From positions 1 to 21,382 of IMG/VR virus record IMGVR_UViG_3300046733_001513: a stretch of 21,382 bases of DNA; one strand, 5' to 3'. Made by a program: the position numbers and the translations under genes. Shown here piece by piece: positions 1-21,382 of this stretch. This DNA comes from a virus. The notes beneath the pieces were generated by a model. It made no database searches. It was not told the DNA's origin and saw only the letters and a program-made list of their open reading frames with translations. How positions within the stretch are numbered: position 1 is the first letter of the stretch; every line of letters starts with the position of its first letter.

Positions 1-390
1 ACACATGATCAGATTGATGAATATCATGCTGAGTGCATTGAAGAAGGTTACGAAGGAATTATGTTACGTGATCCATCTATGGTTTATGAACATACTCGAT
101 CAAAGAAACTTCTTAAATATAAACAGTTCACGGATGATGAATTCAAGGTGATTGATATCACCGCGGGTAAGGGTATGCGAGCCACTATGGCTGGTCGAGT
201 CCGTTGTGTGACGAAGGATGGTGTAGAATTCGAAGCATCGATGCAAGGAACTCACGAATACTTTACAGAACTCTTGGAAAAGAGAAGTGAATTCATTGGT
301 CAGATGGCAACTATTCGATATCAGAATCTAACACCAGATGGAAAGCCTCGATTTGGAGTTATGGTTGATATTGGTCGAATAGATATATAA
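1..390 (+). CDS. ATP-dependent DNA ligase, C-terminal part (5' end outside window)
   Basis: The frame is open from base 1, so this is the 3' end of a longer gene, and the ATG at 61 is internal. Ligase motif IV (EGIMLRD, around bases 52-72) lies across that ATG. Motif V follows with the paired lysines of KLLKYK. The remainder fits the OB-fold domain, ending in a segment like TIRYQNLTPDGKPRFG that is typical of phage and bacterial ATP-dependent ligases. The family seals nicks in double-stranded DNA through an enzyme-AMP intermediate; the adenylated lysine would lie upstream of the window. The stop shares its last base with the start of the next gene (TAATG), so the glycan cassette begins directly against this replication gene. 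Family call is confident; which ligase subfamily is not determined. Confidence 0.88.
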   Translation, partial: THDQIDEYHAECIEEGYEGIMLRDPSMVYEHTRSKKLLKYKQFTDDEFKVIDITAGKGMRATMAGRVRCVTKDGVEFEASMQGTHEYFTELLEKRSEFIGQMATIRYQNLTPDGKPRFGVMVDIGRIDI

Positions 391-1325
391 TGAAAAAGTA
401 TAATTGCCTTTTATTCAATAATGAAATATGGTTATTAGAATTGAGAATCAAGCACGATCTTAAAGTGTTTGATTATGTTGTCATATGTGAAGGTGATAAA
501 ACACACAGTGGCTTGGAAAAGCCATATTATTTCGAAAGATATAAACATCTATTTGAAAAATACCTTGATAGGATTATCTATTTTAAGGTGCAATTACCCA
601 AGCCAACTTGGGGTGATTTTAGATCGACAGTAAGCACGGGCAAATCCATCTTTGTTAAAACCAATAGATGGGAAGTAGAACACTATCATCGTTCAATCTT
701 TAAAGAACATATACTCAATATTACTCAGCCTGATGATCTGATAAGATTTAGCGATCTTGATGAGATTCAAAATAATAATGAGATAAAAGAACACAAATGT
801 GCAGATGATATTACTTTTTATCCATACCATAATTATACAAATTTCATTAGTGAAAAGCCTCATGAGAAAGTATGGATAGCACCTTTCGTGACAAGCGCTC
901 GGATTCTGGATAAGATACAACCTGGAGATTATAGAAAGATAAGTGGAAAAATGAATAAGTATATCGTTCATCATATTTGTAATGAAAGATATTTAAGACA
1001 CAATGATTCAATGGAAACTCCAGTATATAATAAATATAAACTTCCTATTCAAGATATAAAATTTCCTAATAGACATTGGGGTATACATTTGTCAAGTGTA
1101 ACGAATCATTTGAATGGTAGAGAAAAAGCACATTCTTTTTCACATGCAGAGGTAGACATAACATTCATCGCGATGCATGGCCCTTCACCCAATGCAGATC
1201 AGATAGAGAAAAATACTGAAGATGTCATTTCCAACTATATCAATACAAAATTAATGATTAAGCCCCATAGATATATTCCGAAGAAACTCTTTCGCGAAAC
1301 CATCTTTGGTGGATTATATGTATAA
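390..1325 (+). CDS. Glycosyltransferase family 17-like protein
   Basis: This 311-residue protein looks like the GT17 family, whose eukaryotic members add a bisecting N-acetylglucosamine to N-glycans. The N-terminus (YNCLLFNNEIWLLELRI, residues 4-20) matches the family's opening, followed by a YVVICEGDKTHSG segment (residues 29-41). The acidic motif DLDEI (residues 122-126) sits where the family has its D-x-D-E-I/V metal and nucleotide-sugar site. A later HWGIHLSS stretch with a following SFSHAE segment fits the conserved family C-terminus. No signal peptide or membrane segment is evident, so it probably acts in the host cytoplasm. Its start overlaps the ligase stop by one base, suggesting translational coupling. 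It opens the glycan cassette. The sugar donor and acceptor cannot be read from the sequence. Confidence 0.82.
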   Translation: MKKYNCLLFNNEIWLLELRIKHDLKVFDYVVICEGDKTHSGLEKPYYFERYKHLFEKYLDRIIYFKVQLPKPTWGDFRSTVSTGKSIFVKTNRWEVEHYHRSIFKEHILNITQPDDLIRFSDLDEIQNNNEIKEHKCADDITFYPYHNYTNFISEKPHEKVWIAPFVTSARILDKIQPGDYRKISGKMNKYIVHHICNERYLRHNDSMETPVYNKYKLPIQDIKFPNRHWGIHLSSVTNHLNGREKAHSFSHAEVDITFIAMHGPSPNADQIEKNTEDVISNYINTKLMIKPHRYIPKKLFRETIFGGLYV

Positions 1326-1330
1326 GAATT

Positions 1331-1338
1331 TATAAATA
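1331..1338 (+). promoter_or_regulatory. T4-type late promoter element TATAAATA
   Basis: Perfect match to the T4 late promoter core in the 26-base gap between two glycosyltransferase genes, ending 13 bases before the ATG at 1352. In T4 this element is read by the sigma gp55 with the sliding clamp, so most of the glycan cassette would be transcribed late. Being intergenic makes chance less likely. Confidence 0.65.
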
Positions 1339-1351
1339 CATATTCTTAATT

Positions 1352-2377
1352 ATGATAATATCAATTGACGAGTATTTCCAAAAGCCAAATTCCACAGAAT
1401 GGAAGGCACTACAACACATGAAGGAAATCGATAGGTTTGTTGATAGCCCTAATGTTTATATCGGATTCCCTTGGGCACAATATATCGATTCTTATATGCA
1501 ACACGTAGGTGTGCAAGATTGTAAAAAATCTTATAAGACATACTGCGCTCTTCTGGTGGAATTGAAGAAAATACAAGCGCGCTTGAAAGAGATGAAAGGC
1601 ACATACAATAAGGTGTTAACTGTTCATCAGCATGTAGCACTCACATCTCCTTTTATCTACGAAAGATGCTTTAGTAAATTCAGAGTTGATACTGTATTCT
1701 GGTCTCATCTATGTGATCGCTCTCTTAGTGTGGGAAATTATAATGAGAATAATTTATTCTATTCAAAACCGTGGGAGAATACCTTTAAGAGAAAGCATAA
1801 TGTTAAACCTTATTATCTTCACCCTATTCAGATCGAAAAGCCTCTGAAAGAAAAAAAATATTTTAAGAAAAGAAAAGAATTATTTTGTTTTTCTGGTTGT
1901 GGTGATAGTGATATGTATATCGATGATATACGACCGAAGATAGCCAAAGTAGAAAATAATAATATAAGAATCATTGATCGTTGGTATTATAGTAAATTTC
2001 GAAAGGATGGCTTTGAATTGAATGAAACAGAGGGGAAAATCTTTGTGGACAAATCATATATAAAACAATTATCGGATTCACATTTTTGTCTATGTCCAAC
2101 AGGAACAGGTCATAACAGTATTCGTATATGGGAGGCAATCAATGCAGGATCGATCCCCGTATTCATTGATAATCTGCCCGAACTTTACAAAACCCGATCT
2201 GCTGATCTAAAAGATAATTGTGTTATTATAAAAAGTAAAGACCTTAATAATCTGGACAAAGTATTAACTTCATATCTAAAAAAATCTAGGCAGATGAGAG
2301 AAAATTTATTTAAGATAGCCAATGAGATAGTGGAAGAACCCGCACATCAATTATATACCGCATATATCACAGGATGA
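1352..2377 (+). CDS. Exostosin-like (GT47-type) glycosyltransferase
   Basis: A 341-residue protein whose C-terminal half carries the signature of the exostosin family: a segment beginning FCLCPTGTG (from residue 245), then RIWEAINAGSIPVF (residues 258-271). The family binds a nucleotide sugar there and transfers hexuronic acid, hexose or similar sugars; animal members polymerise heparan sulfate and plant members build cell-wall polysaccharides. The N-terminal third is poorly recognisable. No membrane anchor is visible, unlike the eukaryotic type II proteins. A late promoter element lies just upstream. The stop overlaps the next gene in an ATGA. The exact sugar specificity is unknown, and other GT-B families share part of this motif. 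Confidence 0.75.
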   Translation: MIISIDEYFQKPNSTEWKALQHMKEIDRFVDSPNVYIGFPWAQYIDSYMQHVGVQDCKKSYKTYCALLVELKKIQARLKEMKGTYNKVLTVHQHVALTSPFIYERCFSKFRVDTVFWSHLCDRSLSVGNYNENNLFYSKPWENTFKRKHNVKPYYLHPIQIEKPLKEKKYFKKRKELFCFSGCGDSDMYIDDIRPKIAKVENNNIRIIDRWYYSKFRKDGFELNETEGKIFVDKSYIKQLSDSHFCLCPTGTGHNSIRIWEAINAGSIPVFIDNLPELYKTRSADLKDNCVIIKSKDLNNLDKVLTSYLKKSRQMRENLFKIANEIVEEPAHQLYTAYITG

Positions 2378-3381
2378 AGAAAAAATTATTTCTGAGTGTA
2401 ACAGAGAAGGCATCCATTTATAATTCATCTAATTACAGGTGGAGAATTGAAAGGGTTTTTAGAGTGGTTGAAGATATGGATGATGCAGATATTATCCTAT
2501 TGACCGATCCATTCTATCATCAACATGATTTCCTTCAGAGAAAAGAAAAGATCAATGCACGACTCTATTCTTTTTCGGATGAACCTATATGGGATTTATA
2601 TTCGAATGTGTGCACACCAGAGAAATTAAAAGAGAATGTGATTGAATGGAACGGTCATGAGATAACACAGTTGAATCATTTTAATAGTGATATCTTTGAA
2701 TTCGACACACTACCATATTATCTCACTCATCACCCAGATATTGTGGCGAAATATATCACTATGTCGATGCAGTGGTCATATAAGACAGATAAAGAACTTG
2801 TTGATATATGGAGAAAGAGACCAATAAATATCCAAGGGCTCGTGGGTAAAGCAAATGGAAGATTCGAAAAAAAGGTATCAAAGGTATACGATGAATGTAA
2901 TATTGTTCGCAGGTCTAAGATAGCACAAGAGATAGGAAAAGATAAAGAAAATCACCTTGATGGAAAAGGATGGTCGATACAGTCTGGTAAAACTTGTGTT
3001 TCAAACGCAAGAGATAATAGATCATGGCACTATCATAAAATGAAATCCTGTATGAGTTCACGGTATCTTCTCTCTATGGAAAATACCCTTGCACCTAATT
3101 ATATCACAGAGAAGATATTCGATGCAGTATTCTCATTGAATGTACCCATCTTTAATTTCCCACCAGATCATAAGTTTCATAAATTAGGATTAAAAGGTAT
3201 AAATATATTCGGAATTGATGATATTAAAACTTATATAAATGACAGTGTAAAGAAAGATAATTCTCAGATTGTTATAGACAATTTAATGCAGGGAAATGAA
3301 ATATTAAAAAGCGCAGGAAATGATATGGTAAAAGAATCCATAAAAAGAATAGAAAAATTAAATAAAAAAGTGAATGAGTAA
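2374..3381 (+). CDS. GT10 fucosyltransferase-like protein
   Basis: A 335-residue protein resembling alpha-1,3/1,4-fucosyltransferases. Residues 231-252 (opening YLLSMENTLAPNYITEK) match the family's donor-binding motif, including the Y-x-T-E-K core at residues 243-247 and the following ...VPIF strand at 257-260. Known family members transfer fucose from GDP-fucose to N-acetylglucosamine or glucose. The N-terminal half (residues 1-150) is diverged, and the acceptor is not predictable. The gene starts within the stop of the exostosin-like gene (ATGA overlap) and ends overlapping the methyltransferase by eight bases, so it is translated as part of one operon. No GDP-fucose synthesis genes are in the window, so the donor would come from the host or from elsewhere in the phage genome. 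Confidence 0.75.
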   Translation: MKKKLFLSVTEKASIYNSSNYRWRIERVFRVVEDMDDADIILLTDPFYHQHDFLQRKEKINARLYSFSDEPIWDLYSNVCTPEKLKENVIEWNGHEITQLNHFNSDIFEFDTLPYYLTHHPDIVAKYITMSMQWSYKTDKELVDIWRKRPINIQGLVGKANGRFEKKVSKVYDECNIVRRSKIAQEIGKDKENHLDGKGWSIQSGKTCVSNARDNRSWHYHKMKSCMSSRYLLSMENTLAPNYITEKIFDAVFSLNVPIFNFPPDHKFHKLGLKGINIFGIDDIKTYINDSVKKDNSQIVIDNLMQGNEILKSAGNDMVKESIKRIEKLNKKVNE

Positions 3382-4204
3382 TGAATCTACATCAAATTCT
3401 GGCATCTTTATTAATAATGATACTGATATAAATCATATATCTCTTAATTCGGGAAAAGAAAAAGAGTCAAATTCTATATGTCCACCAGATGGTAGGATGA
3501 GACACTGGTATAATTTAAATCATGATGATTTATATATTTACCAAGCATCAATAAATGCCGAAACATATCGAAAATCTTTTGAAAAACATTTAGGAGAACT
3601 AAAAGAAGGCGACAAGATCATGGAATTTGGTTGTTCTTCGGGCAGATTGATTCGATGGTTTGAACCCGAAGCATCAAGGGGTGTGGATGTTTGGGGTGTG
3701 GATATAGATGGTCCCGCCATCACTTGGGCTCAACAGAATTTGCCCAGTAATCTGAATTTCTTTATGAATACTACCTCACCGCACTTGCCATTTCGAGATG
3801 ATTCTTTTAATTTTATCTTTGCGGAATCTGTATTTACTCATATCGCCGAACTCGCGGATGCATGGCTTTTAGAATTAGCTCGGGTGATGAATAAAGATAG
3901 AGGACTGGCTATCATATCTATTAATGATGAGAGAGCAATAGAGAACTTAGAAAAAATAAATCCTCCAAAATATAATGAAATGGGAAAGTGTATATATACA
4001 GGTCCTCGCAAGGCTCTTGGCCTTATAAAAGATTTAAAAGAACCTTTTGGGAAATTAACATTCAATGAGGGACCATGGCAAACTGGTGTATGGTATTCAA
4101 ATGAATTTATTCTTTCTAGACTCAATAAAATTTTCGATATCATTGAAATTATACCCTATTATCACAGCATGTATCAAACTGCTTATATTCTAAAGATCAA
4201 ATGA
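3374..4204 (+). CDS. SAM-dependent class I methyltransferase
   Basis: A 276-residue protein with a class I Rossmann-fold methyltransferase core. Motif I is MEFGCSSGRL (residues 83-92), followed by a strand ending VWGVDID (106-112) that supplies the acidic residue binding the SAM ribose. LPFRDDSFNFIFAESVFTH (138-156) matches the usual motif II and III region. The closest-looking group is the methyltransferase_11/25 type, common in polysaccharide loci. Residues 1-45 have low complexity and no recognisable fold, so a start further in (for example the ATG at 3497) is possible. The coupled start at 3374, overlapping the previous stop by eight bases, is preferred. From context it may O-methylate a sugar of the same glycan; small-molecule or protein substrates are not excluded. 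Confidence 0.85.
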   Translation: MSNESTSNSGIFINNDTDINHISLNSGKEKESNSICPPDGRMRHWYNLNHDDLYIYQASINAETYRKSFEKHLGELKEGDKIMEFGCSSGRLIRWFEPEASRGVDVWGVDIDGPAITWAQQNLPSNLNFFMNTTSPHLPFRDDSFNFIFAESVFTHIAELADAWLLELARVMNKDRGLAIISINDERAIENLEKINPPKYNEMGKCIYTGPRKALGLIKDLKEPFGKLTFNEGPWQTGVWYSNEFILSRLNKIFDIIEIIPYYHSMYQTAYILKIK

Positions 4205-5199
4205 TGGAATTCTATAATATTCAATCTTGTTACATAGATGATAAAGACATCTTATATTTTGATGTGTTTATTAAAGATAATCTGCTTTATATAATAAAGC
4301 CAGTCTATTATAAACCCAGACCAAGATTAGAAAAATGGGTGATAAGGGTAAACGGCGAACCAGTTAAACTTACAGAAAATAAAGTATCTTTAGATTGGCG
4401 AACCGAAACAGAGAACGGTGAACCCTTCTGGATAACAAAGTATGAGATAAAGAATGTCTTGGATATTAATGATGTCAGCATCAAGCTGAAAGATATACAT
4501 GAAACATTTCAATTAGTTCCTCATGTAGAAGAGAAAAAATTATTTTCTGTCTCGACACTATTTAAATATGATATTGAAGAGTATGAGAGATGGTATAATT
4601 ACTACAAGGCTCAAGGAGCAGATCATTTTTATATTTATTATAATGGCATATTGAGTGATGATCAAATAAAAATTCTTGAGAATGATGATGTCACACTGAT
4701 TAATTGGGATTTTCGTTATGTAAATTTTCCTTTATTACAAAAGCCACCAGAAGGCTCACACTATAAGTATGGTCATCATGCACAGCCGGCGCAGATAAAT
4801 CATGCCTTCCATCTATTCAATGATCATTATATGCTATTCTGTGATTTTGATGAATTCCTTGAATGGAATGATGGCACATTGAGAGAAATGATTCTCAAAT
4901 ACTCTGATATAGATGTATTTGGTTTCAGAAACTGCTGGGCTAAGTCAGGCTTTGAGAAGAATACATTACACTATGATGATCCATTAGAATACCCGATAAG
5001 AGCGAAGAACATATATAAAGTAGAATCTTATAAGAATTCAATCAAGATTCATAGCCCTTCGATCACAAATGGCTACAATATAAAGAGTGATCTTAATATG
5101 TACCACTTTCATAAGATAAATGCATCAAAGCGATTGTTTGAAAATAAAAATATCTATCCACCTCTTGATTATAAGAATTATAAATATTTTGAATGGTAG
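4201..5199 (+). CDS. GT92/GT2-type glycosyltransferase
   Basis: A 332-residue protein. After a beta-rich N-terminal region (residues 1-110) comes a GT-A glycosyltransferase domain like GT92 and related bacterial glycosyltransferases: a segment starting LFSVSTLFKYDIEEYERW (residues 114-131), the YNYYKAQGADHFYIYYN strand region, and the metal-binding CDFDEFL motif (residues 214-220). Characterised GT92 enzymes add galactose to core fucose or related sugars, but that specificity cannot be assumed here. Start and stop overlap both neighbours (ATGA at 4201; seven bases with the next gene). A second ATG directly follows the first at 4204, so the start is uncertain by one codon. The N-terminal extension may bind the acceptor or another cassette protein. 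Confidence 0.78.
   Translation: MMEFYNIQSCYIDDKDILYFDVFIKDNLLYIIKPVYYKPRPRLEKWVIRVNGEPVKLTENKVSLDWRTETENGEPFWITKYEIKNVLDINDVSIKLKDIHETFQLVPHVEEKKLFSVSTLFKYDIEEYERWYNYYKAQGADHFYIYYNGILSDDQIKILENDDVTLINWDFRYVNFPLLQKPPEGSHYKYGHHAQPAQINHAFHLFNDHYMLFCDFDEFLEWNDGTLREMILKYSDIDVFGFRNCWAKSGFEKNTLHYDDPLEYPIRAKNIYKVESYKNSIKIHSPSITNGYNIKSDLNMYHFHKINASKRLFENKNIYPPLDYKNYKYFEW
5179..5186 (+). promoter_or_regulatory. Possible T4-type late promoter TATAAATA before the sulfotransferase genes
   Basis: Perfect eight-base match, but inside the last codons of the preceding glycosyltransferase, where AT-rich codons could produce it by chance. It ends six bases before the ATG at 5193, close to the five-base spacing seen at five other starts. 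This makes a separate promoter for the three sulfotransferase genes plausible. Confidence 0.42.
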
Positions 5200-5753
5200 A
5201 TGATAAGAGAAAGTGCGTATTCATACATATACCAAAGTGTGCTGGCAATTCAATTGTAGATGCTTTTGGTATCCATGTTCATAGTCATCAGCCCGCCAAT
5301 TATTACTGGCGAGAGAAAAAAATATTAGATTACTATCTCTTCTCCTTTGTTCGTAACCCTTGGGATAGATTCCTCAGCGCTTATCTTTTCTTGAAAGACG
5401 GTGGAATGAACGATGTAGATAAATTGGCAGCGAAGAATCTAATTAAAGGAAGAGACTTCGAAGAATTTTTATTAGATACTCCGATACATGAAATTCTTCA
5501 ACAAACACACTTTAAAAGATTAACACATTTCTTGAATAGAAAAATTGATTTCATTGGAAAATATGAAAATCTAGATGAAGATTTTAAACAACTATTGATA
5601 AATATTGGAGAGGATGATATAGAACTACCTCATCTTAATGCTACCCGCAATAAGAAACATTATACAGAATATTATAATGATAAGACTATTAAGGCTATAA
5701 GAAAACTTTACTTCAGAGATATAAAATTATTTAATTACGAGTTTGGAAAATGA
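5193..5753 (+). CDS. Carbohydrate sulfotransferase-like protein, copy 1
   Basis: A 186-residue member of the sulfotransferase_2 type, which moves sulfate from PAPS to a sugar hydroxyl. The 5'-phosphosulfate loop is FIHIPKCAGNS (residues 10-20, catalytic-loop Lys15). The 3'-phosphate site is FVRNPWDRFLSAY (52-64, Arg54 and Ser62). Both are near-canonical, making this the most typical of the three copies. It ends with a HYTEYYND...LFNYEFGK tail shared with the next two proteins. It lacks the membrane anchor of Golgi enzymes and is shorter than most animal members, so a soluble cytoplasmic enzyme is likely. The start overlaps the preceding gene by seven bases. The acceptor is unknown; the neighbouring glycosyltransferases suggest a glycan. 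Confidence 0.88.
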   Translation: MVDDKRKCVFIHIPKCAGNSIVDAFGIHVHSHQPANYYWREKKILDYYLFSFVRNPWDRFLSAYLFLKDGGMNDVDKLAAKNLIKGRDFEEFLLDTPIHEILQQTHFKRLTHFLNRKIDFIGKYENLDEDFKQLLINIGEDDIELPHLNATRNKKHYTEYYNDKTIKAIRKLYFRDIKLFNYEFGK

Positions 5754-6415
5754 GAATATCACACAAACACAAATTTATTTTTTACGCCATCAATAAGACA
5801 GGTAGTTCATCTATTCGTGATTATTTTTATAGAGTTTTGAAAGATGACTACGATGAAAATATCACTGTCGGGACGCCGAAGCCACGTCAATGGAATCATC
5901 ACCATAATGACTTTAATGCTGTTAAAAAACATTTCGAAACAATAGAATATAATTATGATGATTATATCAAATTTGCTTTCATACGAAACCCTTGGGATAG
6001 AGAATTATCAATTTATCATTTCAAATTAAGGCGCAGAGACGAGAGCAAATGCCCCGCGGCGACTTGGCAATTGGGAGATTCTGGAAATTCATTTAAAGAA
6101 TGGATCAAAAGTGACCAGTATATGAAAAAATCAAATGATGTTCATGCTTATCAACATAAGTGGTTAGATTTTAATGACCCTAAATTCTTTGCTTTTTCAT
6201 ATGAGAATCTACAAAAGGATTTTGATTCAATGATTGAGTTGATAAATGCTCATTCCTCTGCTGCTGACCTACCTAAAAAGAAATTATCTCATCAGATGAT
6301 GGGTCAATATAAGCATATTCCTTACACAGAATATTATGATGAAGAGATGGTAGAGATTGTATCTAAAAAATTTGCAAAAGATATTGAGATATTCAACTAT
6401 AAATTCGGAGAATAA
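5750..6415 (+). CDS. Sulfotransferase-like protein, copy 2
   Basis: A 221-residue paralogue of the preceding protein. The 5'-phosphosulfate loop is altered to YAINKTGSSSI (residues 12-22), keeping Lys16 but with Asn in place of the usual Pro. The 3'-phosphate motif FIRNPWDRELSIY (77-89) keeps Arg79 and Ser87. The tail again reads YTEYYDEE...IFNYKFGE. A His-rich stretch (residues 50-52) and a longer middle region distinguish it from copy 1, where acceptor choice would be expected to differ. The start lies in the stop of copy 1 (ATGA). A run of about 20 bases around the RNPWD codons is identical to copy 3, which supports duplication within this lineage. Activity is likely but unproven. Confidence 0.83.
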   Translation: MRISHKHKFIFYAINKTGSSSIRDYFYRVLKDDYDENITVGTPKPRQWNHHHNDFNAVKKHFETIEYNYDDYIKFAFIRNPWDRELSIYHFKLRRRDESKCPAATWQLGDSGNSFKEWIKSDQYMKKSNDVHAYQHKWLDFNDPKFFAFSYENLQKDFDSMIELINAHSSAADLPKKKLSHQMMGQYKHIPYTEYYDEEMVEIVSKKFAKDIEIFNYKFGE

Positions 6416-6421
6416 AAAAAA

Positions 6422-7036
6422 ATGATTTTATCAGATAAGTATAAATTTATATTCATCAGACAGCAGAAGATAGGTGGTGCTACGATGGAGAAAAATGGGA
6501 TCGCTGTAATCGACCCAAACTACATTAAATTTACCAAGGATAAATGTCCAGGTGAAGACCCAAATCATATGAGATGTGAGACAATTGCAGACCTGATACC
6601 TCATAAGTATGATAATTACTTTAGATTTACTTTCATACGAAACCCTTGGGCAAGATTGGTCTCTTTATATTTTCATATCAACCAAGGTGCCAGTGAAGAA
6701 ATGTGGAAGAAAGAATATCATGAGAAAAATTTTAATCCTTACAGAAAGACATTCGATCAATTTATAAAAGAATGCGATAATAAATTATGGGCCAATTCTT
6801 TTTTACCCATGAAAGATTTTGCTGGTGATGTGGATTATATAGGTAAGACAGAGAACTTACAAGAGGATTTTAATTATATATGCGATTGTATAGGTGCACC
6901 TAGAAAAGATATTGGATGGGGAAATAAAGGAAATCATAAGTTGTACACTGAATATTATAATGATGAGACGAGAGAAATAGTCGCACAAAGATATGCAGAA
7001 GACATAGCTGCATTTAATTATGAGTTTGGAAAATAA
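6422..7036 (+). CDS. Sulfotransferase-like protein, copy 3 (divergent)
   Basis: A 204-residue paralogue of the two preceding proteins. The 5'-phosphosulfate loop is the most divergent: FIRQQKIGGAT (residues 11-21) keeps Lys16 but not the surrounding Pro-Lys context. The 3'-phosphate motif FIRNPWARLVSLY (71-83) keeps Arg73 and Ser81 and replaces the Asp of RNPWD with Ala. The tail YTEYYNDE...AFNYEFGK matches the other two copies. The start is separated from copy 2 by six A-rich bases, with a GGAG eleven bases upstream that could be a weak ribosome binding site. It overlaps the next gene by 17 bases. It may use a different acceptor or be catalytically weakened; the sequence cannot decide. Confidence 0.78.
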   Translation: MILSDKYKFIFIRQQKIGGATMEKNGIAVIDPNYIKFTKDKCPGEDPNHMRCETIADLIPHKYDNYFRFTFIRNPWARLVSLYFHINQGASEEMWKKEYHEKNFNPYRKTFDQFIKECDNKLWANSFLPMKDFAGDVDYIGKTENLQEDFNYICDCIGAPRKDIGWGNKGNHKLYTEYYNDETREIVAQRYAEDIAAFNYEFGK

Positions 7037-7679
7037 AGTAAAAATATTATCGAACAATTCTGTTTATAGGGTAACAGATCTGATACACCAAAGAGGTGTG
7101 AGATGGGAAAGGGATAGAGCAGAGATACTATCCAATCCAAAGTTTAAAGACACCATAATGTTTGATTATCTTATGGAAAAAGAGAAAGAGTGGGATTACA
7201 TTCTTCTTAAAAGTCTTATAGAAAAACATACAGAGAAATACAATTATCCCATTCCAGAAGAAAATGAATTGGTCGTGCACCTCCGAATGGGTGATGTTGT
7301 GGGAGAAGGAGATTGTTGCCCTGGCTTTGAAGCAATCAATGATATGTATAAAGGATTTTGGGATAATCTAAACCCCGATAAATTTGATAAGGTAACCTTT
7401 GTTGTGGCACTACACTTCGGTGCAAATGATCTGACTGGTCAATATTACTATTCTGACAAGGTAAAGAATGATAACTTTACTATCTTAGAGAATATCAAGA
7501 AGCAGATAGAGGATGTCGGAAAGGAAATGAACATATATTCGTCTAGTGAACCCGATAAAGATATCTGTTACATGGCTCATGCTAGACATTATATGAAGAG
7601 TATGAGTGAATTATCTACCATTGTAGGTAAATGTATGGTAAATGATTCTGATATATATGTGATCAAATCATATAAATAG
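7020..7679 (+). CDS. Fucosyltransferase-like protein with HxR motif (GT11/GT23-like)
   Basis: A 219-residue protein with ELVVHLRMGDVV (residues 83-94), which resembles the H-x-R-R-x-D GDP-fucose-binding motif of GT11, GT23 and O-fucosyltransferases. Here the second Arg is Met, while the first Arg and the Asp remain. Residues 181-203 (DICYMAHARHYMKSM, then SELSTIVGK) resemble the second half of that fold, where a short D-x-x-x-M helix is followed by a Ser-rich strand. It is shorter than typical GT11 enzymes (about 280-300 residues) and may lack part of the N-terminal lobe. The 17-base overlap with the upstream gene is long for this region, so a later start is possible. It closes the glycan cassette. 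Family placement is tentative. Confidence 0.55.
   Translation: MSLENKVKILSNNSVYRVTDLIHQRGVRWERDRAEILSNPKFKDTIMFDYLMEKEKEWDYILLKSLIEKHTEKYNYPIPEENELVVHLRMGDVVGEGDCCPGFEAINDMYKGFWDNLNPDKFDKVTFVVALHFGANDLTGQYYYSDKVKNDNFTILENIKKQIEDVGKEMNIYSSSEPDKDICYMAHARHYMKSMSELSTIVGKCMVNDSDIYVIKSYK
7671..7678 (+). promoter_or_regulatory. T4-type late promoter TATAAATA before the virion genes
   Basis: Perfect late-promoter core overlapping the stop codon of the last cassette gene and ending exactly five bases before the ATG at 7684. In T4, transcription starts about six bases after this core, so the mRNA would start at or next to the ATG. Confidence 0.8.
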
Positions 7680-7683
7680 AACC

Positions 7684-8022
7684 ATGGCTACATATAAAAA
7701 TTTATTTATCGATCAGGGATCGGATTTTAGTGTCATGATTGATCTCAACCCAATAGTTGGTTCCTTAGTTCTAACAAATTATACGGGCAGAGGTCAGATT
7801 AGAAAGACATACAATTCAAGTGCAAAGACAGATTTTACGGTCACCCTTGATAGTGTCAATAAAGAATTAGTTTGTAATCTCACCGCGGCTCAGACAGGCT
7901 TATTAAAGTCTGGAAGATATGTTTATGATCTCGAAATACTTTCACCAGACTCACCATCAATCGTCACACGAGTGATTGAAGGACAAGTAGAAGTCACCCC
8001 TCGTGTGACCCTTGGAGCTTAA
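7684..8022 (+). CDS. Small virion protein with Ig-like (BppU N-terminal-like) fold
   Basis: A 112-residue protein beginning MATYKNLFIDQGSDF, a form shared by small structural proteins found beside the neck genes of marine T4-like phages. The pattern (an early IDQGSDFSVMIDL strand, a GRGQIRKTY centre, a LKSGRYVYDLEI strand and an IEGQVEVTP end) resembles the N-terminal beta-sandwich domain of phage baseplate upper proteins. It probably sits on the neck, tail or fibre attachment surface. It is the first gene behind a late promoter, followed after 13 bases by gp13. Virion location is inferred from the neighbours and the family resemblance. Confidence 0.7.
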   Translation: MATYKNLFIDQGSDFSVMIDLNPIVGSLVLTNYTGRGQIRKTYNSSAKTDFTVTLDSVNKELVCNLTAAQTGLLKSGRYVYDLEILSPDSPSIVTRVIEGQVEVTPRVTLGA

Positions 8023-8030
8023 TATAAATA
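8023..8030 (+). promoter_or_regulatory. T4-type late promoter TATAAATA before gp13
   Basis: Perfect core starting directly after the previous stop codon and ending five bases before the ATG at 8036. It also decides the start of gp13, because the upstream TTG at 8012 would lie before the promoter. Confidence 0.8.
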
Positions 8031-8035
8031 GAGAC

Positions 8036-8788
8036 ATGGCTAAACCAAATTCAAGACAAACATTAATCGATTATTGCATGCGCTCATTGGGTGCACCAGT
8101 GATCGAAATCAATGTAGACGAAGATCAGGTTTCTGATCGCATAGATGAGGCACTTCAATTTTATCAAGAATATCATTCAGATGCCGTTGTCAGAACTTAT
8201 CTCAAAAAGAAAGTTACACAGGATGATATAGATAATCGATACATTGATCTACCTGATAAAATGCTTTTTGTGAATAGAGTTTTTCCTATCGATGGTGGAA
8301 CAACAGGCACAGGAATGTTTTCCGTGGATTATCAGATTCATCTTAATGATATATTTGATATGCAGAATGCCGGCGGTGGATTATTGACCTATGAGATGAG
8401 TCAACAATATCTTTCATTGATCGACCGACAGATTAGTGGTATGCAACACATCTCAACATTTACAAGACATGCCGATAGATTGGCAATCGAAATTGATTGG
8501 GAAGCAAATCTTTCTGTAGATGACTACATCATTGTTGAAGGATATCAAACACTCGATCCCGATACATACACAGATGTTTATAATGATAGATTCCTCAAAA
8601 AATATTCAACCGCTCTCATTAAACGCCAATGGGGCTTGAATCTAATTAAATTTGAAGGTATGCAACTTCCAGGTGGAGTTACTTTAAATGGTCGCCAAAT
8701 TTATGACGACGCTATACAAGATATTGAAAAGATCGAAGAAGAAATGCAACTCACCTACGAGATGCCACCTCACTTCTTTGTTGGATAA
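8036..8788 (+). CDS. gp13: Neck protein gp13 homologue
   Basis: A 250-residue protein matching the T4 gp13 group of marine phages. The recognisable stretch is SRQTLIDYCMRSLGAPVIEI followed by NVDEDQVSDRIDEALQFYQE, near the N-terminus. With gp14, gp13 forms the head-to-tail neck that closes the filled head and receives the tail. The start at ATG 8036 is chosen over the longer open frame from TTG 8012 for two reasons: the conserved N-terminus begins at MAKPNSRQ, and a late promoter lies between the two. The protein is soluble, with no signal or membrane segment. It is followed after eight bases by gp14, the usual partner. Confidence 0.88.
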   Translation: MAKPNSRQTLIDYCMRSLGAPVIEINVDEDQVSDRIDEALQFYQEYHSDAVVRTYLKKKVTQDDIDNRYIDLPDKMLFVNRVFPIDGGTTGTGMFSVDYQIHLNDIFDMQNAGGGLLTYEMSQQYLSLIDRQISGMQHISTFTRHADRLAIEIDWEANLSVDDYIIVEGYQTLDPDTYTDVYNDRFLKKYSTALIKRQWGLNLIKFEGMQLPGGVTLNGRQIYDDAIQDIEKIEEEMQLTYEMPPHFFVG

Positions 8789-8796: not shown

Positions 8797-9717
8797 ATGC
8801 CAAGAAATGTATATTTCAGTCAAGGGACAAATTCTGAACAAAGAATTTACGAAGATATAATTATCGAAGGTCTTCGCATTTACGGGCACGATGTGTACTA
8901 TCTGCCCCGTAAAATAATTAAAGAAGACGGTATCTTTAATGAGGCTTCTCTATCGGAATTCGGTTCCTCGTACATGATCGAGGCTTATGTAGAGAATGTA
9001 GATGGCTTCGAAGGTGAGGGTGATCTTCTATCCAAATTTGGATTAGAGATAAGAGACCAAGCCACATTGGTAATTTCTAATAAGAGATGGGAACAGCTTG
9101 TCGGTAGATTCCAGAATCCTGTCGAGGCTAGACCACAAGAAGGTGATATCATCTTCTTCCCAATGGTCAATACACTATTTGAAATCAAATATGTCGAACA
9201 AGAGACACCATTCTATCAATTACAAAATCTTCCTGTATTCAAGCTCAAGATAGAAGCCTTTGAATATGGTAATGAGGCAATTGATACCGGTGTTGAAGAG
9301 ATTGATGCATTTGAAAGCCAATTTGGCTCCAGAACAAGATTGATCACTGGTGCGACAACAGAATTTGCAGTTGGGGATAATGTTACACAGTATCAACTAG
9401 GTCTTACTGTTAATGGTGAGATCGCAGAACTGATTGGTGACAATCTAGATTCTCCAGCAGGTTCGATCATTGATGTAACTGGAATAAGTGCCGACGATGG
9501 TTCTAATTCCAACTTCAAACCCACTAATGGTTCGAATGGTAACCTTGTTAATGTGTCATCATTTGCCGTTACACCAATTCTTTCGATTGATACCTTTGAG
9601 CCTATTAAAGCCAGTGATACCTACGGAACCGATCAGAGTTCTGAGTTTGAAGATATTGGTAATAATTTCATAGATTTCTCAGAATTAAACCCATTTGGAA
9701 TACCCGATAATGCTTAG
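8797..9717 (+). CDS. gp14: Neck protein gp14 homologue
   Basis: A 306-residue homologue of T4 gp14, the second neck protein. The N-terminal pattern NVYFSQGTNSEQRIYEDIII, then GLRIYGHDVYYLPR, and the later FGLEIRDQATLVISNKRWE (about residues 80-100) are characteristic of the gp14 group in T4-like marine phages. The C-terminal third (from about residue 215) is Ser, Asn, Gly and Asp rich and looks like a flexible or variable tail. The protein works with gp13 at the head-tail junction, where gp15-capped tails dock. Its end overlaps the gp15 start by eight bases (ATGCTTAG), so the pair is probably translationally coupled. Confidence 0.88.
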   Translation: MPRNVYFSQGTNSEQRIYEDIIIEGLRIYGHDVYYLPRKIIKEDGIFNEASLSEFGSSYMIEAYVENVDGFEGEGDLLSKFGLEIRDQATLVISNKRWEQLVGRFQNPVEARPQEGDIIFFPMVNTLFEIKYVEQETPFYQLQNLPVFKLKIEAFEYGNEAIDTGVEEIDAFESQFGSRTRLITGATTEFAVGDNVTQYQLGLTVNGEIAELIGDNLDSPAGSIIDVTGISADDGSNSNFKPTNGSNGNLVNVSSFAVTPILSIDTFEPIKASDTYGTDQSSEFEDIGNNFIDFSELNPFGIPDNA

Positions 9718-10491: not shown

Positions 10492-12033
10492 ATGAGTGCT
10501 ATTATAACCCCAACATTTAGAAAAAACGCTGTCGGAGATTTTCAGTCTGGCATCGATAATCCTAGTAACAACTATTACATTGGTATAGGAAGACTCATTC
10601 CTTGGCCTAATAACCCTGGCACACCTCCAATATCCGAGGAGAGCTCATTGTTTACTGAACCTCTTCCACAAGTGACACTTGCTGAAGAACAAGATGTGCG
10701 CGACGAATTGATGACCTTGGTGAAAGTTAAGGAAAGTTCGCCAATGATTCCCAAGAATCTATGGTCTCAAGATAGAAGATATAAAAGATATGATCCAACC
10801 GATCCTCTTACCTTTGAACTTGAGGGTAATCTATATCCATCTATAACAGTAAGTGATGATAAAATTTATCTTTGCATTGAAAATAATACTGATGGAAATG
10901 GTACTATCGGAGAATCATCACTCTCACCTCATGTCGATAATGGCACATTCCAATCAGCCACACAAAAGGTTGGCGATGATCGTGGTGATGGTTATGTTTG
11001 GGCTTATATTGGCGCTTTATCATCTAATTCTAAATTAGATAATGATCAATTTATAAGTGTTTCACCCGATGCATTGACTGATTCAACTGAGATAGCAGCA
11101 GCGTTGGCTGCGACAGGAGGCTTGGTTTATGGATTCAAGATCGAACAAACAACTGGTACAGTAGACTTAGACAAGGTTGATATTGTTCTTGAGGGTATCG
11201 ATTCAACTGGCACTAAGATCGCCGATGTCTTAATTGTAGATAGTGATGGAACTACTGGAACCATCGATGGTAGATTTACAATCGAAGGCCCCGCATCTGG
11301 TTCGGGCATCGATAAATTGTATTATACGGTTAATTCTTATACAAATGCACCTGCCGGATACAAAAAAGCCACCATCACAGTTTACAGTGTAGATACAAAT
11401 GGTGATCGAACAAAGATTGATGATATTAAGATAATCCCACTTCTGGCGCCACTTGAAGGTTTTGGTTATGATATTTCAAATCATACTCCAGCTCATTATG
11501 CCGGTGTTTATGCAAGATTTGCAGAATCTGTTGATGGTGAGTCTTTAACAGTGGCAGCATATAGACAGATTTCAATCATAAAGAATCCTCAAAGAAGAAC
11601 AGATGATTCACCCGATGATATTGATAACGAAGATGTGGCTCTAGTCTATGCAGATGAAGAAGCAATTGACTGCTTAAATTATATTCAGATTAGTGGTAGT
11701 GATGTGAATCTTCAAGGGTTCGATCCGGGTACAATCATATCTCAGGTTAGTTCAGGTGCCAAAGCACAAGTTGTGCATGTTGATCTAGGTGGTAAAAAGA
11801 TTTACTATCAACAGCAAGATCAATTCCTCTCCAATTTCTTGCCTTTTGATACATCAGGTGATATTGTAGCCGAAACTACAATTCCCGTAACTATACAAGG
11901 TTCAGATGTCTTATCTTTATATACAAGTGAATATATAAAGGATACAGGTGAAGTTCTTTTTGTGGATAATAGAAAAAGAATTAATAGAAATCAAGATCAG
12001 ATTGAAGACCTTAGGATTGTAATACAATTCTAA
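10492..12033 (+). CDS. gp8: Baseplate wedge protein gp8 homologue, enlarged
   Basis: A 513-residue homologue of T4 gp8, a baseplate wedge subunit. Shared landmarks in order are NYYIGIGRLIPWPNN (T4: TIFITFGRSEPW), GDGYVWAYI (residues 165-173; T4: GDGYVWEYL), YRQISIIKNP (357-366; T4: FRQISIITNP) and the C-terminal GEVLFVDNRKRINRN followed by DLRIVIQF. T4 gp8 has 334 residues. The extra length lies mainly between residues about 200 and 325, a beta-rich insert of Asp, Thr and Gly character, and at about 395-470, where an SGAKAQV-type module sits. Both may be surface domains. The gene follows gp15 rather than gp7 as in T4. Function is inferred from the shared motifs. Confidence 0.82.
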   Translation: MSAIITPTFRKNAVGDFQSGIDNPSNNYYIGIGRLIPWPNNPGTPPISEESSLFTEPLPQVTLAEEQDVRDELMTLVKVKESSPMIPKNLWSQDRRYKRYDPTDPLTFELEGNLYPSITVSDDKIYLCIENNTDGNGTIGESSLSPHVDNGTFQSATQKVGDDRGDGYVWAYIGALSSNSKLDNDQFISVSPDALTDSTEIAAALAATGGLVYGFKIEQTTGTVDLDKVDIVLEGIDSTGTKIADVLIVDSDGTTGTIDGRFTIEGPASGSGIDKLYYTVNSYTNAPAGYKKATITVYSVDTNGDRTKIDDIKIIPLLAPLEGFGYDISNHTPAHYAGVYARFAESVDGESLTVAAYRQISIIKNPQRRTDDSPDDIDNEDVALVYADEEAIDCLNYIQISGSDVNLQGFDPGTIISQVSSGAKAQVVHVDLGGKKIYYQQQDQFLSNFLPFDTSGDIVAETTIPVTIQGSDVLSLYTSEYIKDTGEVLFVDNRKRINRNQDQIEDLRIVIQF

Positions 12034-12036
12034 TTC

Positions 12037-12044
12037 AATAAATA
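12037..12044 (+). promoter_or_regulatory. Late-promoter-like element AATAAATA before the DUF4815 gene
   Basis: Matches NATAAATA in the 29-base gap, ending 18 bases before the ATG at 12063. The leader shows no Shine-Dalgarno sequence. The first base differs from the T4 consensus, and AT-rich DNA raises the chance of a random match. Confidence 0.5.
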
Positions 12045-12062
12045 TAATCAAACAAATACAAT

Positions 12063-15000
12063 ATGCCGAATAATATTACAACATTTGGGCAAACGCCTTA
12101 TGTAGATGATTTTCAAACCTCATCCATTGCAGGTGGTAAGACACCAGAAGAGAAAAATTATCTAAGGATTCTATATAAGCCTGGAGTTTCAGTTCAAGCC
12201 CGAGAACTTAATCAAATGCAATCTATGCTTCAATCGCAGATTGATTCATTAGGTAGAGCATCATTTGAAGATGGTGCCGCTGTTGTTGGTGGAGAAAAAC
12301 AATTTGATGATTCAATTTATGCCGTTGATATCAACATTGATGAATCTAATATTTTTCGACCGGAAGATAAGACACATTATCTCAATAATATAACTACATT
12401 ACAATATCAAGAGGTTGATGGAGCCGAGACATATTATATCAATGCTACCGTATTACACTATGTAGAACTTGGTAATGGTGATATAAGATTCTTTGTGAGA
12501 TATGATAATTCATACATAAATGAAACCACAGGTGTTGAAACTAAGACATTCCCAATTTCGGGTGGCGCCATTTATTATGGCGGTGCAGAAACAATTATTT
12601 CCATTAGTACAGAAACAGCTCTCGATCCAGAGTTGACAGGTCGAGGCACCATCTCAGATAGTCCATACCTACCCATTCAAGATTCAAGTAATGGCTCAAT
12701 TGGCTCTTTAGTTGCATCACATCAAGCGATTATTGCTAAAGTAGATTCAGGTATATTCTTTGTAAAAGGAGAATTTGTATTATCTGATGAAACAGAAATC
12801 TTTTTTGTAAAACCTGTATATGATTATCTTGCTAATGGAAAACTTGCCTTTAGAGTAAATGAACAGACCATAACAGCAGAAGATGATGAAACAGAATCTC
12901 TTTATGATAATGCTCAAGGTTATCCTAACTATAAGGCACCTGGTGCAGATAGATATGCAATCGACTTAGAACTTTTATTTCTCAGCGATGGTGATGCAAC
13001 AGTTGCGGGTAATGATAAAGACTTTGTAGATAATAATTCTGATGTAAGCTCGCTTTCAGATATAAATGAGAGTGATGAAATATTCTCATTTATTTTAGAA
13101 ATTGTAGATGGAAAAGATAGAGTAAAGGTATCAGATATTTTGGGTGATAATATCACCAATACCCTTGCACGAAGAACAGAAGAAGAGAGTGGAGATTATG
13201 CCGTTGAGCCTTTTATTATCGATGTTAGAGAATATTATAATGATACTAATGATTCCGAAAATAGAGGATTATATACTGAGCAACAAATTCGTGATGCAGG
13301 AATTACTGTAGAAGAAGGAGATATCTCTGGAATTGCAGAGATCGGCGATGTATTAATCGATGCAACCCAACCATCCCCAGCCGATGTTGAAAAATACGGT
13401 GAATCTAGAATGTCGATTGGTATTGAACCCTCTGTTGCTTATGTAGATGGTTTCAGAGTTGAGGCAACAGAGAGAATTGATATTCCTGCACCAAAGGCTA
13501 GAACAACCGAAGTTGATCCTGTCGAAGCAGTTGTTACTGCAGAACTAGGCTCATATATCGAAGGTGATGGTCTTTTTGGCACACCTGCTTTAGGAATTGA
13601 TGTTACACAAACCACTAGTGGTGCTACTGCTAAAGTAAGAGGAATCGAATATATCGGTGATAAATTTAGATTGTATGTTTATAATATAGACGGCTCATTC
13701 GATAATACAAATGATATAACTGGAACTAATTTCAAATTTACTCCTACAAGCACAATCATTGATCCCACCATATCAGAGAGTTTCATTGTCCTTCCTTATG
13801 AAAATATATCTGATGTGGTTGCAGCTGACTCTACATTCAAGATAAGAGAACTTTTTAATGGTGAATTTGATTCAAGTGAAGGTTCGAATGGGGTTGTTAA
13901 AATAACTTATACCGGCAATGATGGAAGAATCTTTAAGGATGAGGGTGGCGGTGATGATTATCTCATTCAAAGAGGCACAGGAACAACCGAGGCTGTTATT
14001 ATTCCAGAAACCGCAAGTATCAGTAATAATGAAGTAACTCTGACTCTCGCAGCTGGTCACGGGTTCACCGACGGTGAAACTGTACCAGTATTACACTCTT
14101 TTGAGGTTGATGGTGATACATCTGAAAGAAGCATAAAAACTAAAACACCTTCAGATGGAGGAGCAGCAAAACCACATGGTACTCAAACATTCGTGGGCAC
14201 ACTTGATGATACATTTAGAGGATTAGGAAAAGTTGATGTAATCGAAATTATAAGTGCCACTATCACATCTGATAGCCCAATTACAGATATTAAAAGTGAT
14301 ATCGAATTGGATGATGGACAAAGAGATGGTATTTACAAAGAAGCAAAGATTAGATACACAGGATCATTAGACCTAAGTTCTGAAACCGTTGTAGTTACAT
14401 TTAAATATTTTATCCGCGGTAGTGTAGGATCATATTATACTAAAAATTCATATATCAATACCGATTATAAAGATATTCCTTCCTATAAAGGTGTAAGACT
14501 TAGTGATATCATTGATTTCCGAGGTGATGAAATAGGATCAAACGGTCTGACAACATTCTTTGATCCAAATAGTGTTGTAGAGACGAAGGTAAACTATTAT
14601 CTTAATAGAGTTGATGTTGTTGTTGTAAATTCTATTGGAGAATTTAATGTGATAGAAGGTACTCCTGGTCTAAACCCAGATCAGCCCTCTATACCAGACA
14701 ATGCGATGCATCTCTATACGGTCAATGTTCCTGCTTATACTTTTGATATTAAAGATATCGAGAATGAGTATATTGATAATAGAAGATATACAATGAGAGA
14801 TATCGGTGAACTTGAATCTCGCATTAAGAATATCGAATATTTTAATACCCTATCTTTATTGGAGAAAGATGCTAATTCAAAGCAGATTCCCGATGATACC
14901 ACGGGTATGGAAAGATTCAAGAATGGAATCGTAGTTGATAGTTTCCTTGGTCATGGTACATCAGATACACTTGATCCAGGTTACGCTGCTTCGGTTGATA

Positions 15001-17210: not shown

Positions 17211-17212
17211 AT

Positions 17213-17419
17213 ATGACTGGAACAGAATACACACCCATTGAAGATCACCCAGAATATATAAAAGATGGCAAGAATGGTGCTATCATAAATATAGATAATA
17301 GTGCATACGAAGCAGCGCTGAGAAGAAAAGAAATAGGAAAACAAAATAGTAAGATGAAAGAAGACATTGATGAATTAAAATCAATGATGAAATTGTTACT
17401 GACAAAATTAGATAAATAA
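17213..17419 (+). CDS. Small coiled-coil protein
   Basis: A 68-residue protein with a motif like HPEYIKDGKNGAIINIDNSA (residues 12-31) followed by a charged helix. The C-terminal half (from about residue 36; NSKMKEDIDELKSMMKLL is within it) has heptad spacing and probably forms a coiled coil. Proteins of this shape occur next to structural genes in marine T4-like phages, but their role is not established. It begins three bases after the giant structural gene, and its last codons contain the late promoter for the next gene. A small virion or assembly protein is likely. Confidence 0.65.
   Translation: MTGTEYTPIEDHPEYIKDGKNGAIINIDNSAYEAALRRKEIGKQNSKMKEDIDELKSMMKLLLTKLDK
17411..17418 (+). promoter_or_regulatory. 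Late-promoter-like element GATAAATA before the fibre-like gene
   Basis: Matches NATAAATA across the last codons and stop of the small coiled-coil gene and ends five bases before the ATG at 17424, the same spacing as four other starts in the window. Confidence 0.6.
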
Positions 17420-17423
17420 GAAT

Positions 17424-18209: not shown

Positions 18210-18231
18210 TGATTCACTATAATAAAAGAAA

Positions 18232-19500: not shown

Positions 19501-19502
19501 TT

Positions 19503-20159: not shown

Positions 20160-20165
20160 TAAAAT

Positions 20166-20393
20166 ATGTATCACTTAATTTTTAAAAAAGAAGAAGACGC
20201 ATGGAAGAGGTCTCTTAAAGAAGGAAAGAAATTTCCAAAGAAGATAAATCCAAATGTGTGTAATAGATTCGAAATGTCTTTCGGATATGTAACCAAACCA
20301 ATTTTAACACCAGAGAATGATTATGTTCTTCCAATAGAAAACTATAAGTTGACTAAGAAAGAAGAAGATGAAAAAATCATATACCCATATTAA
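20166..20393 (+). CDS. Hypothetical 75-residue protein
   Basis: A short, Lys- and Glu-rich protein with no recognised family. It has a basic N-terminal half (for example KEGKKFPKKINPN), a central VTKPILTPEN segment and an acidic-basic end. No signal peptide, membrane segment or metal motif is visible. The gene lies six bases after the VWA gene and 17 bases before the next fibre-like gene, on the same strand, and the tight packing supports a real gene. It may be a small accessory or assembly factor for the neighbouring fibres, but that is only context. Confidence 0.55.
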   Translation: MYHLIFKKEEDAWKRSLKEGKKFPKKINPNVCNRFEMSFGYVTKPILTPENDYVLPIENYKLTKKEEDEKIIYPY

Positions 20394-20397
20394 ATCT

Positions 20398-20405
20398 TAT
20401 AAATA
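20398..20405 (+). promoter_or_regulatory. T4-type late promoter TATAAATA before the terminal fibre-like gene
   Basis: Perfect core in the 17-base gap after the 75-residue gene, ending five bases before the ATG at 20411. It supports that start for the truncated gene. Confidence 0.8.
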
Positions 20406-20410
20406 GAATC

Positions 20411-21382
20411 ATGGCACTTACAAGAAATACAACATCCATTGCAAAACAGACTTCGGGTAATTCCGCAACTTTTGTTACAGGAGATGTCACAGATCCAAAT
20501 AAAGTATTAAAATGGGATAGTAAAGGTAATGCCATTTCGAGTGGCTTTGAAATGACAAACGATGCTTTTGGTGGAATATTACCATCAAGTCCATCTAAGA
20601 TACCAACCCAAGAATCTATCAATTCTCTAATCAATACTAAGTTGGGAGGTGCCGATGGTGCAGCATTGAATTTGATAAAAATCAATCCTGTGGATAATCC
20701 TGCATCTGGTGTAGGTGGTCTTAGTATTTCTCTTAAAGTCGATGGTGAGCAAGTAATAACATATACTCCACCTGATGCTCTTACTGCTGATGAGATTGAT
20801 ATTACAGGTTTTGATTCTGGTGAATTTGTTTCTATTGATTCCGATGGTAAGCTCATAACATCGAAAATGAAGAAGTCTCTTACAATAGATTCATCTTCAA
20901 CAGATGATACATTACCAACATCAAAGGCAGCCTTTGATTATGGACAGAATATAACCGCAAATAGATTGCTTGGTGTAGATGATACTATTACTCATGGCGA
21001 TTTTCTTTCATATAATTCTGCGACAGGAGGATTCGAAGCCAACAGCGCATCAATAAGTAACCATAGATTATTTAGTGCAACTCATACAGATGTAGCAAGT
21101 AATGTTACCCCATCCTATGGTGATTCAATGTACTATGATGGTACAGAATGGACTGTAGGTAACTTTGGTAATTGGGGCGCTGATATGGAATATCGTGGCA
21201 TTACTAGCCAGAATGGTGCGACATTTAGCGATTTAGATTATTCTGGCATGAATTCTGACGTAAGAAATATGTTTAATGCTAATGGATTGCGAGATGCTTT
21301 TTCTCGACCAACAGCATCAACTGCACCCGCCGAAGGTTCAAATCTATCTGGTAACTTATCTGGATTAAAACTTTCATCCATA
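20411..21382 (+). CDS. Tail-fibre-like structural protein, N-terminal part (3' end outside window)
   Basis: Open from ATG 20411 to the last base with no stop, giving 324 residues of a longer protein. It begins MALTRNTTSIAKQTSGNSAT. Residues 161-177 (SSSTDDTLPTSKAAFDY) match the D-D-x-L-P-T-S-K-A segment common in phage tail fibres. A later part with an SYGDSMYYDGTEWTVGNFG pattern looks like the fibre module where a G-D-x-x-x-Y-D-G turn precedes a Trp. The composition (Ser, Thr, Asp and Gly rich, few Cys) fits a beta-structured fibre. The start is supported by a late promoter five bases upstream. Its position after the shorter fibre and the VWA protein suggests it is part of the same host-recognition apparatus. 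The receptor-binding end is not in view. Confidence 0.75.
   Translation, partial: MALTRNTTSIAKQTSGNSATFVTGDVTDPNKVLKWDSKGNAISSGFEMTNDAFGGILPSSPSKIPTQESINSLINTKLGGADGAALNLIKINPVDNPASGVGGLSISLKVDGEQVITYTPPDALTADEIDITGFDSGEFVSIDSDGKLITSKMKKSLTIDSSSTDDTLPTSKAAFDYGQNITANRLLGVDDTITHGDFLSYNSATGGFEANSASISNHRLFSATHTDVASNVTPSYGDSMYYDGTEWTVGNFGNWGADMEYRGITSQNGATFSDLDYSGMNSDVRNMFNANGLRDAFSRPTASTAPAEGSNLSGNLSGLKLSSI

Follow-up and report, generated by a model that had tools for sequence, protein, structure and literature searches.

A 21,382-base viral record from a T4-like (Kyanoviridae-like) marine phage (IMG/VR IMGVR_UViG_3300046733_001513; this whole stretch is hereinafter the window) contains nine adjacent open reading frames (ORFs) at 390-7679, all on the + strand, flanked by the end of a DNA ligase gene on one side and by the neck genes on the other. 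The predicted products are glycosyltransferases of the GT17, GT47, GT10 and GT92 types, a methyltransferase (MT), three sulfotransferases (ST1, ST2 and ST3) and a conserved protein denoted p10. The apparent joint expression of the cassette with the particle genes, and its position at a site where related phages exchange such gene sets, suggest a glycan coat tailored by the phage for itself or its host. In the reading favored here, to which we give about an even chance, a sulfated glycan would be made in the cytoplasm late in infection by an exchangeable cassette, with the product placed on virion proteins rather than on the host lipopolysaccharide (LPS). The gp14 protein of this phage is ~37-40% identical to those of Phage C48C1, Pelagibacter phage HTVC008M and cyanophages, C48C1 and HTVC008M being the nearest named phages by this protein. 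The ORF coordinates confirm the compact, one-strand layout recognized in the original prediction, with the widest gap of 26 bases (GT17-GT47). The remaining junctions are overlaps of 1 base (ligase/GT17), 4 bases (GT47/GT10), 8 bases (GT10/MT), 4 bases (MT/GT92), 7 bases (GT92/ST1), 4 bases (ST1/ST2) and 17 bases (ST3/p10), and gaps of 6 bases (ST2-ST3) and 4 bases (p10 to the next gene).

Predicted enzymes of the cassette

Judged against the curated family cut-offs, eight of the nine cassette genes score above the Pfam threshold; together with the motifs, these scores uphold the family assignments of the original prediction for all but the ninth protein. The first gene (390..1325, +) encodes a soluble glycosyltransferase of the GT17 family (PF04724, Glyco_transf_17, 46.6 bits with a cut-off of 26) that contains a DLDE motif and no transmembrane helix. 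The next one is an exostosin/GT47-type glycosyltransferase (1352..2377, +; PF03016, Exostosin_GT47, 50.3 bits, cut-off 33.4) with the exostosin motif CP.G.G..S.R..EA...G.IPV, which also scores for RXYLT1_C (PF24785, 34.2 bits); a chlorovirus protein with an exostosin/GT47 match proved to be a GT114 enzyme (PMC11571054). The GT10-type, alpha-1,3-fucosyltransferase-like protein (2374..3381, +; PF00852, Glyco_transf_10, 26.4 bits, cut-off 23.9) matches its family only in the C-terminal motif region, where the ENTLAPNYITEK motif (ENxxxxNYxTEK; family pattern EN....[DN]YxTEK) occupies residues 236-247, and is weakly similar to solved fucosyltransferases. It is followed by a class I S-adenosylmethionine (SAM) methyltransferase (3374..4204, +; PF08241, Methyltransf_11, 46.2 bits, cut-off 21.2) and a GT92/GT2_4-type glycosyltransferase with a DFDEF motif (4201..5199, +; PF01697, Glyco_transf_92, 40.8 bits, cut-off 23; PF13704, 36.6 bits). 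The cassette proteins lack membrane segments (the maximum 19-residue hydropathy is 1.12), and the available sequence, which represents a partial genome, yielded no lipid-carrier starter, flippase or polymerase and no LPS-type export or ligase gene. For these two reasons, the glycan is predicted to be assembled in the cytoplasm.

The three sulfotransferases, ST1 (5193..5753, +), ST2 (5750..6415, +) and ST3 (6422..7036, +), all belong to Sulfotransfer_2 (PF03567, cut-off 22), with scores of 65.9, 66.6 and 65.5 bits, respectively. The 5' and 3' motifs for binding 3'-phosphoadenosine 5'-phosphosulfate (PAPS) are intact in ST1 and ST2; in ST3, the 5' PAPS motif is degenerate (RQQKIGGAT) yet the invariant lysine is kept. 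ST1 is 92-100% identical in the related contigs L002, L005, L006 and L007, ST2 is missing from L005, L006 and L007 and is represented by a diverged copy in L008, and ST3 diverges fast (61-81% identity to relatives). In a tree of 226 sequences with moderate supports, the three proteins fall into three different clades, which rules out local tandem duplication as their source; ST2 and ST3 sit in a virus-dominated group (75 other viral sequences and 1 bacterial sequence), and ST1 is closer to bacterial enzymes. Among viral loci, 52 of 71 contain at least two sulfotransferases, compared with 12 of 80 bacterial loci, a biased estimate given that both sets were collected with a viral sulfotransferase profile. 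Around the viral sulfotransferase genes, there are many families of glycosyltransferases, nucleotide-sugar enzymes and methyltransferases, including uridine diphosphate (UDP)-galactopyranose mutase and LPS- or capsule-type enzymes. The named members of Sulfotransfer_2 act largely on carbohydrates, and PHROG 3347 is annotated as galactose-3-O-sulfotransferase; the other family, Sulfotransfer_3 (PF13469), has no match in the window. This largely viral family of sulfotransferases, often with two or more members per locus, points to a widespread and hardly described trait.

The ninth protein, p10 (7020..7679, +), is 93-94% identical in relatives and contains the HxRxGD (HLRMGD) and ALHFG motifs. 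Searches of Pfam, PHROGs, NCBIfam and PDB return no match, and two AlphaFold2 runs reached predicted local distance difference test scores (pLDDT) of only 44 and 46, too low for a fold comparison. The original label, HxR-type fucosyltransferase-like, is thus supported by the HLRMGD motif and by no family match, and the assignment of p10 as a GT11-type fucosyltransferase is rejected because it matches neither the HxR (GT11/GT23, NodZ, O-FucT) families nor a solved structure. The one distant homolog of p10 (27% identity, with the motif histidine not kept) is encoded next to a sulfotransferase in another glycan island, in the record L226, and for this reason p10 is probably a glycan enzyme. This large island (12.6 kb of the 70 kb record) contains five sulfotransferase genes, the p10 homolog, Gly_transf_sug and FkbM methyltransferase genes and a DUF1796 protein.

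Some of the precursors could be supplied by the phage itself. Two genes upstream of the ligase, there is an epimerase-family gene; among proteins of solved structure, UDP-glucuronate decarboxylases are the best matches to its product (UXS-like), with other nucleotide-sugar epimerases scoring almost equally. In the related contig L101, a UDP-glucose-dehydrogenase-like (UGD) gene is adjacent to the UXS-like gene. The combined activities of UDP-glucose dehydrogenase and UDP-glucuronate decarboxylase yield UDP-xylose, and so would these two genes if the predicted activities are correct. As far as the partial sequence extends, phages of this clade would depend on the host for PAPS. Matches to APS_kinase are present in 19 of the 49 viral records with a sulfotransferase versus none of 50 neck-gene records, two sets that differ in record size and lineage. 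Examples are L102:10094-10930, where ~80 residues match APS_kinase and the C-terminal part is nucleotidyltransferase-like, and L357:1471-1902. These genes could provide phage-encoded PAPS or another activated group and are a lead only.

An exchangeable segment with late-promoter motifs

The cassette is bordered on the 5' side by the 3' end of an ATP-dependent DNA ligase gene (1..390, +; DNA_ligase_OB_2, phrog_114) and on the 3' side by a gene for a tail-fiber-anchor or assembly-like protein (7684..8022, +; phrog_3304, phrog_1084), which is followed by the genes for the gp13-like neck protein (Ad2; 8036..8788, +; phrog_211) and the gp14-like neck protein (Hc2; 8797..9717, +; phrog_460). The order of the nine genes is the same in the nearly identical contig L002 and, apart from the missing ST2, in L005. 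In the partial contig L008, three sulfotransferase genes precede p10, the first one cut by the contig end; one of the three has no counterpart in the window, so that L008 would have four if ST1 lies beyond the contig end. The 3' end of the ligase gene is 95-97% identical in L005 and L101. L101 closely resembles the window on both sides of the segment (97% identity in the ligase over 129 codons, 96% in gp13 and 95% in gp14), but the cassette between the ligase and the 7684 gene is replaced by genes for a GT90 glycosyltransferase and two sulfotransferases. In L126 and L130, a fiber-like gene precedes the homolog of the 7684 gene; in the sister contig L031, two sulfotransferases, a GT2-type enzyme and UDP-galactopyranose mutase are encoded ahead of gp13, and the same set is found in other contigs; in the cultured pelagiphage HTVC008M (L011:8261-11134), the slot holds four 2-oxoglutarate (2OG)-Fe(II) oxygenase-type genes and a putative ferrochelatase gene. 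Because L101, L126, L130, L031 and HTVC008M all hold other content at this position, the slot ahead of the neck genes is, by genome comparison, a replacement site. A tryptophan halogenase is encoded a few genes past the neck genes in HTVC008M.

The ratio of nonsynonymous to synonymous substitution rates (dN/dS) is 0.05-0.23 in comparisons of eight cassette genes with relatives (0.07-0.23 versus L005; 0.21 for GT17); ST2, which has no counterpart in L005, is outside this set. The values obtained with L005 are comparable to those of the neck and baseplate genes, indicating that the eight genes are maintained under purifying selection; values below 0.25 also rule out chance ORFs. When the cassette proteins were compared with 50,697 phage records, the matches to GT17, GT47 and ST3 were all weak or partial, and GT10, GT92 and p10 had none.

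The window contains seven copies of TATAAATA, the T4 late promoter consensus. All are on the + strand, and although their number alone is not significant (3.6 expected), six of the seven are located within 32 nt of a gene start (binomial P ~8e-9), a position reached at most twice by any of the 55 other permutations of the same letters. The genes behind the six boxes are GT47, ST1, the 7684 gene, gp13, the baseplate gene at 10492 and the fiber gene at 20411. Among the matches, those ahead of GT47 (1331..1338, +; conserved in L005), ST1 (5179..5186, +; conserved in L005, L006 and L007), the 7684 gene (7671..7678, +; conserved in L005, L006, L007, L008 and L101) and gp13 (8023-8030) are all consistent with T4-type late promoters. 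The replacement cassettes of L101 and L031 likewise have a late-type box ahead of their first gene. If these boxes are used, the cassette would be expressed together with the particle genes. Sigma-70-like promoters are rarer than in shuffled sequences and were disregarded.

An ATG is located 5-6 nt after TATAAATA in four of the seven cases in the window (5179, 7671, 8023 and 20398), in 20 of 35 cases in close contigs and in 19 of 30 in sister contigs; with a start site placed like that of T4, many of the late transcripts would lack a leader. In the remainder of the window (10492-21382), baseplate and fiber genes, along with the gene for a 1715-aa baseplate-type protein, come after gp15. In sister phages, gp15 is followed by other genes (terminase in the annotated C48C1) and fibers are encoded ahead of gp13; hence, the module order in the window is rearranged. 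The fiber region also encodes a protein (19503-20159) with a DNSGS motif resembling the von Willebrand A metal site, which is strongly diverged in the related contig L016.

Proposed product and acceptor, and alternatives

According to the favored reading, during virion assembly, the soluble GT17, GT47, GT10 and GT92 enzymes, possibly along with p10, would extend a short branched oligosaccharide using nucleotide sugars drawn from both the host and the phage. The methyltransferase would cap or alter one sugar, and the three sulfotransferases, which differ in ancestry, would each sulfate a different position with host PAPS as the donor. The resulting glycan would decorate the particle proteins of the phage, with tail fibers as the first suspects, and set the charge and identity of the surface, which cassette swap or gain and loss of sulfotransferases would alter in a serotype-like manner. 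The glycan itself, the order of its assembly, its acceptor and its benefit are what we infer. That the set builds, methylates and sulfates a glycan, as originally predicted, is supported by the eight family assignments, the neighbors of viral sulfotransferases and the UXS-like upstream gene.

Virion proteins are favored as the acceptor because of the late promoters, the location in a slot occupied by fiber genes in other phages, and the chlorovirus precedent discussed below. A candidate acceptor is the fiber protein at the end of the window (20411..21382, +), which is cut by the contig end. Its ortholog in L016 (L016:6007-9429) contains a collagen-like Gly-X-Y stretch that is rich in threonine at position Y, and glycosylated collagen-like proteins are present on Bacillus spores. 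Two small genes beyond the collagen-like fiber gene, on the opposite strand, L016 encodes a two-domain glycosyltransferase (GT2_4 and Fringe-like; L016:3801-5300).

Several considerations weigh against the favored reading. The GT17 gene itself has no TATAAATA box, and the late promoters are consensus matches, the use of which we infer from the motif. The collagen-like fiber is found in one relative only, the copy in the window is truncated, and the virion acceptor is a presumed one. Furthermore, peripheral cytoplasmic glycosyltransferases also make lipid-linked O-units, so that the lack of membrane segments is compatible with LPS synthesis, and given that the genome is incomplete, LPS-type partners may be encoded elsewhere. 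The authors who described the equivalent island in pelagimyophages favor modification of the host O-chain by its glycosyltransferases (PMC7029224).

The main competing explanation, which we consider a real if lesser possibility, is that the cassette remodels the O-chain of host LPS or the capsule via lipid-linked cytoplasmic precursors, blocking competitors or the adsorption of the phage's own progeny to debris. This scenario has been published for that island, fits the UDP-galactopyranose mutase and the LPS- or capsule-type enzymes next to viral sulfotransferases, and accommodates the variation of the cassette equally well, as variation of the host surface. Late expression would suit the shielding of progeny from the debris of lysed cells, but exclusion of competitors requires early expression whereas the promoters are late-type, and export, polymerase and ligase genes were not identified in the available part of the genome. 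The original prediction left the choice between virion and host cell open; the late promoters tilt it toward the virion and do not settle it. It is improbable that small molecules, lipids or tyrosine, rather than the glycan, are the substrates of the sulfotransferases, with unrelated auxiliary genes as neighbors. Although the function of phage sulfotransferases has been called 'unclear' (PMC10580990), and no substrate is known for either p10 or the methyltransferase, membership in Sulfotransfer_2, the annotation of PHROG 3347, the overlapping gene order kept in relatives and the recurrence of glycosyltransferases next to viral sulfotransferases all argue against this reading. Even less probable is hypermodification of the phage's own DNA, which glycosyltransferases of T4 and other phages perform: late promoters are ill-suited to a replication-coupled function, there is no pyrimidine hydroxymethylase among the annotated genes in ~21 kb upstream of the ligase, and we know of no sulfotransferase that acts on DNA, even if DNA-decorating phage glycosyltransferases are known (cited in PMC12619734).

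Returning to decoration of the virion, it can be tentatively proposed that this phage lineage makes sulfated, methylated and probably xylose- and fucose-bearing virion glycans, with whole-cassette exchange acting as a serotype switch. If correct, this would be, to our knowledge, the first phage with a sulfated glycoprotein coat that the virus itself makes, and sulfation of virions would affect adsorption, aggregation and recognition. Sulfate is an unusual chemical mark that is directly detectable by mass spectrometry or sulfate labeling.

Relation to known systems

Marine T4-like phages commonly carry glycosyltransferase islands, the target of which is usually assigned by analogy with O-antigen conversion; the same late-promoter motif ahead of both cassette and particle genes provides a testable lead on the target. 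The closest counterpart is the 'host recognition cluster' (HRC) of pelagimyophages and cyanomyophages, a hypervariable island by gp14 with fibers and glycosyltransferases (PMC7029224). As in the HRC, the cassette island lies directly upstream of the neck genes, with the 7684 gene, gp13 and gp14 coming next, and its content is variable and non-syntenic, L101, L031 and L126 being different at the slot; UDP-glucose 6-dehydrogenase, too, is reported among the LPS-type genes of the HRC (PMC7029224). However, the outer border is DNA ligase here and VrlC in the HRC, baseplate and fiber genes follow gp15 here, three sulfotransferases and the GT17/GT47/GT10/GT92 set are found in place of the GT8 of the HRC, and late promoters and an allelic swap are documented for the present locus.

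Chlorovirus PBCV-1 glycosylates its capsid protein in the cytoplasm with its own, mostly soluble enzymes (A064R, A075L, A111/114R; PMC11571054, PMC5408694). The similarities include soluble glycosyltransferases and a methyltransferase, a xylosyltransferase once annotated as exostosin/GT47, and a product with fucose and xylose; in contrast, this is a eukaryotic algal virus with scattered genes and a known acceptor. Among tailed phages, self-encoded glycosylation of the virion, in both capsid and tail tube, is on record for a mycobacteriophage (Freeman 2023, cited in PMC12619734). Synechococcus phage S-B05 (L013) possesses a cyanophage cluster with GT17, a methyltransferase and GT11, but this cluster includes its own deoxythymidine diphosphate (dTDP)-sugar and TagD genes, and no sulfotransferase is annotated in the stretch examined. 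We know of no sulfotransferases in the chlorovirus system and of no sulfation of mycobacteriophage virions. Sulfotransferases as such are carried by OM43 phages (PMC10580990), where they belong to Sulfotransfer_3, and by Stenotrophomonas phage DLP6, in which a single gene is located beside hypothetical genes and DNA polymerase.

The original prediction knew of no comparable locus, and in this respect it needs amendment because HRC islands (PMC7029224) and phage sulfotransferases (PMC10580990) have been published; its novelty claim holds for the enzyme set. Neither the literature searched nor the phage collection contained this set, its late promoters, the exchange of the whole cassette or the clade of viral sulfotransferases. 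Thus, the kind of locus is already known from the HRC islands, and the enzyme set that it carries here is new.

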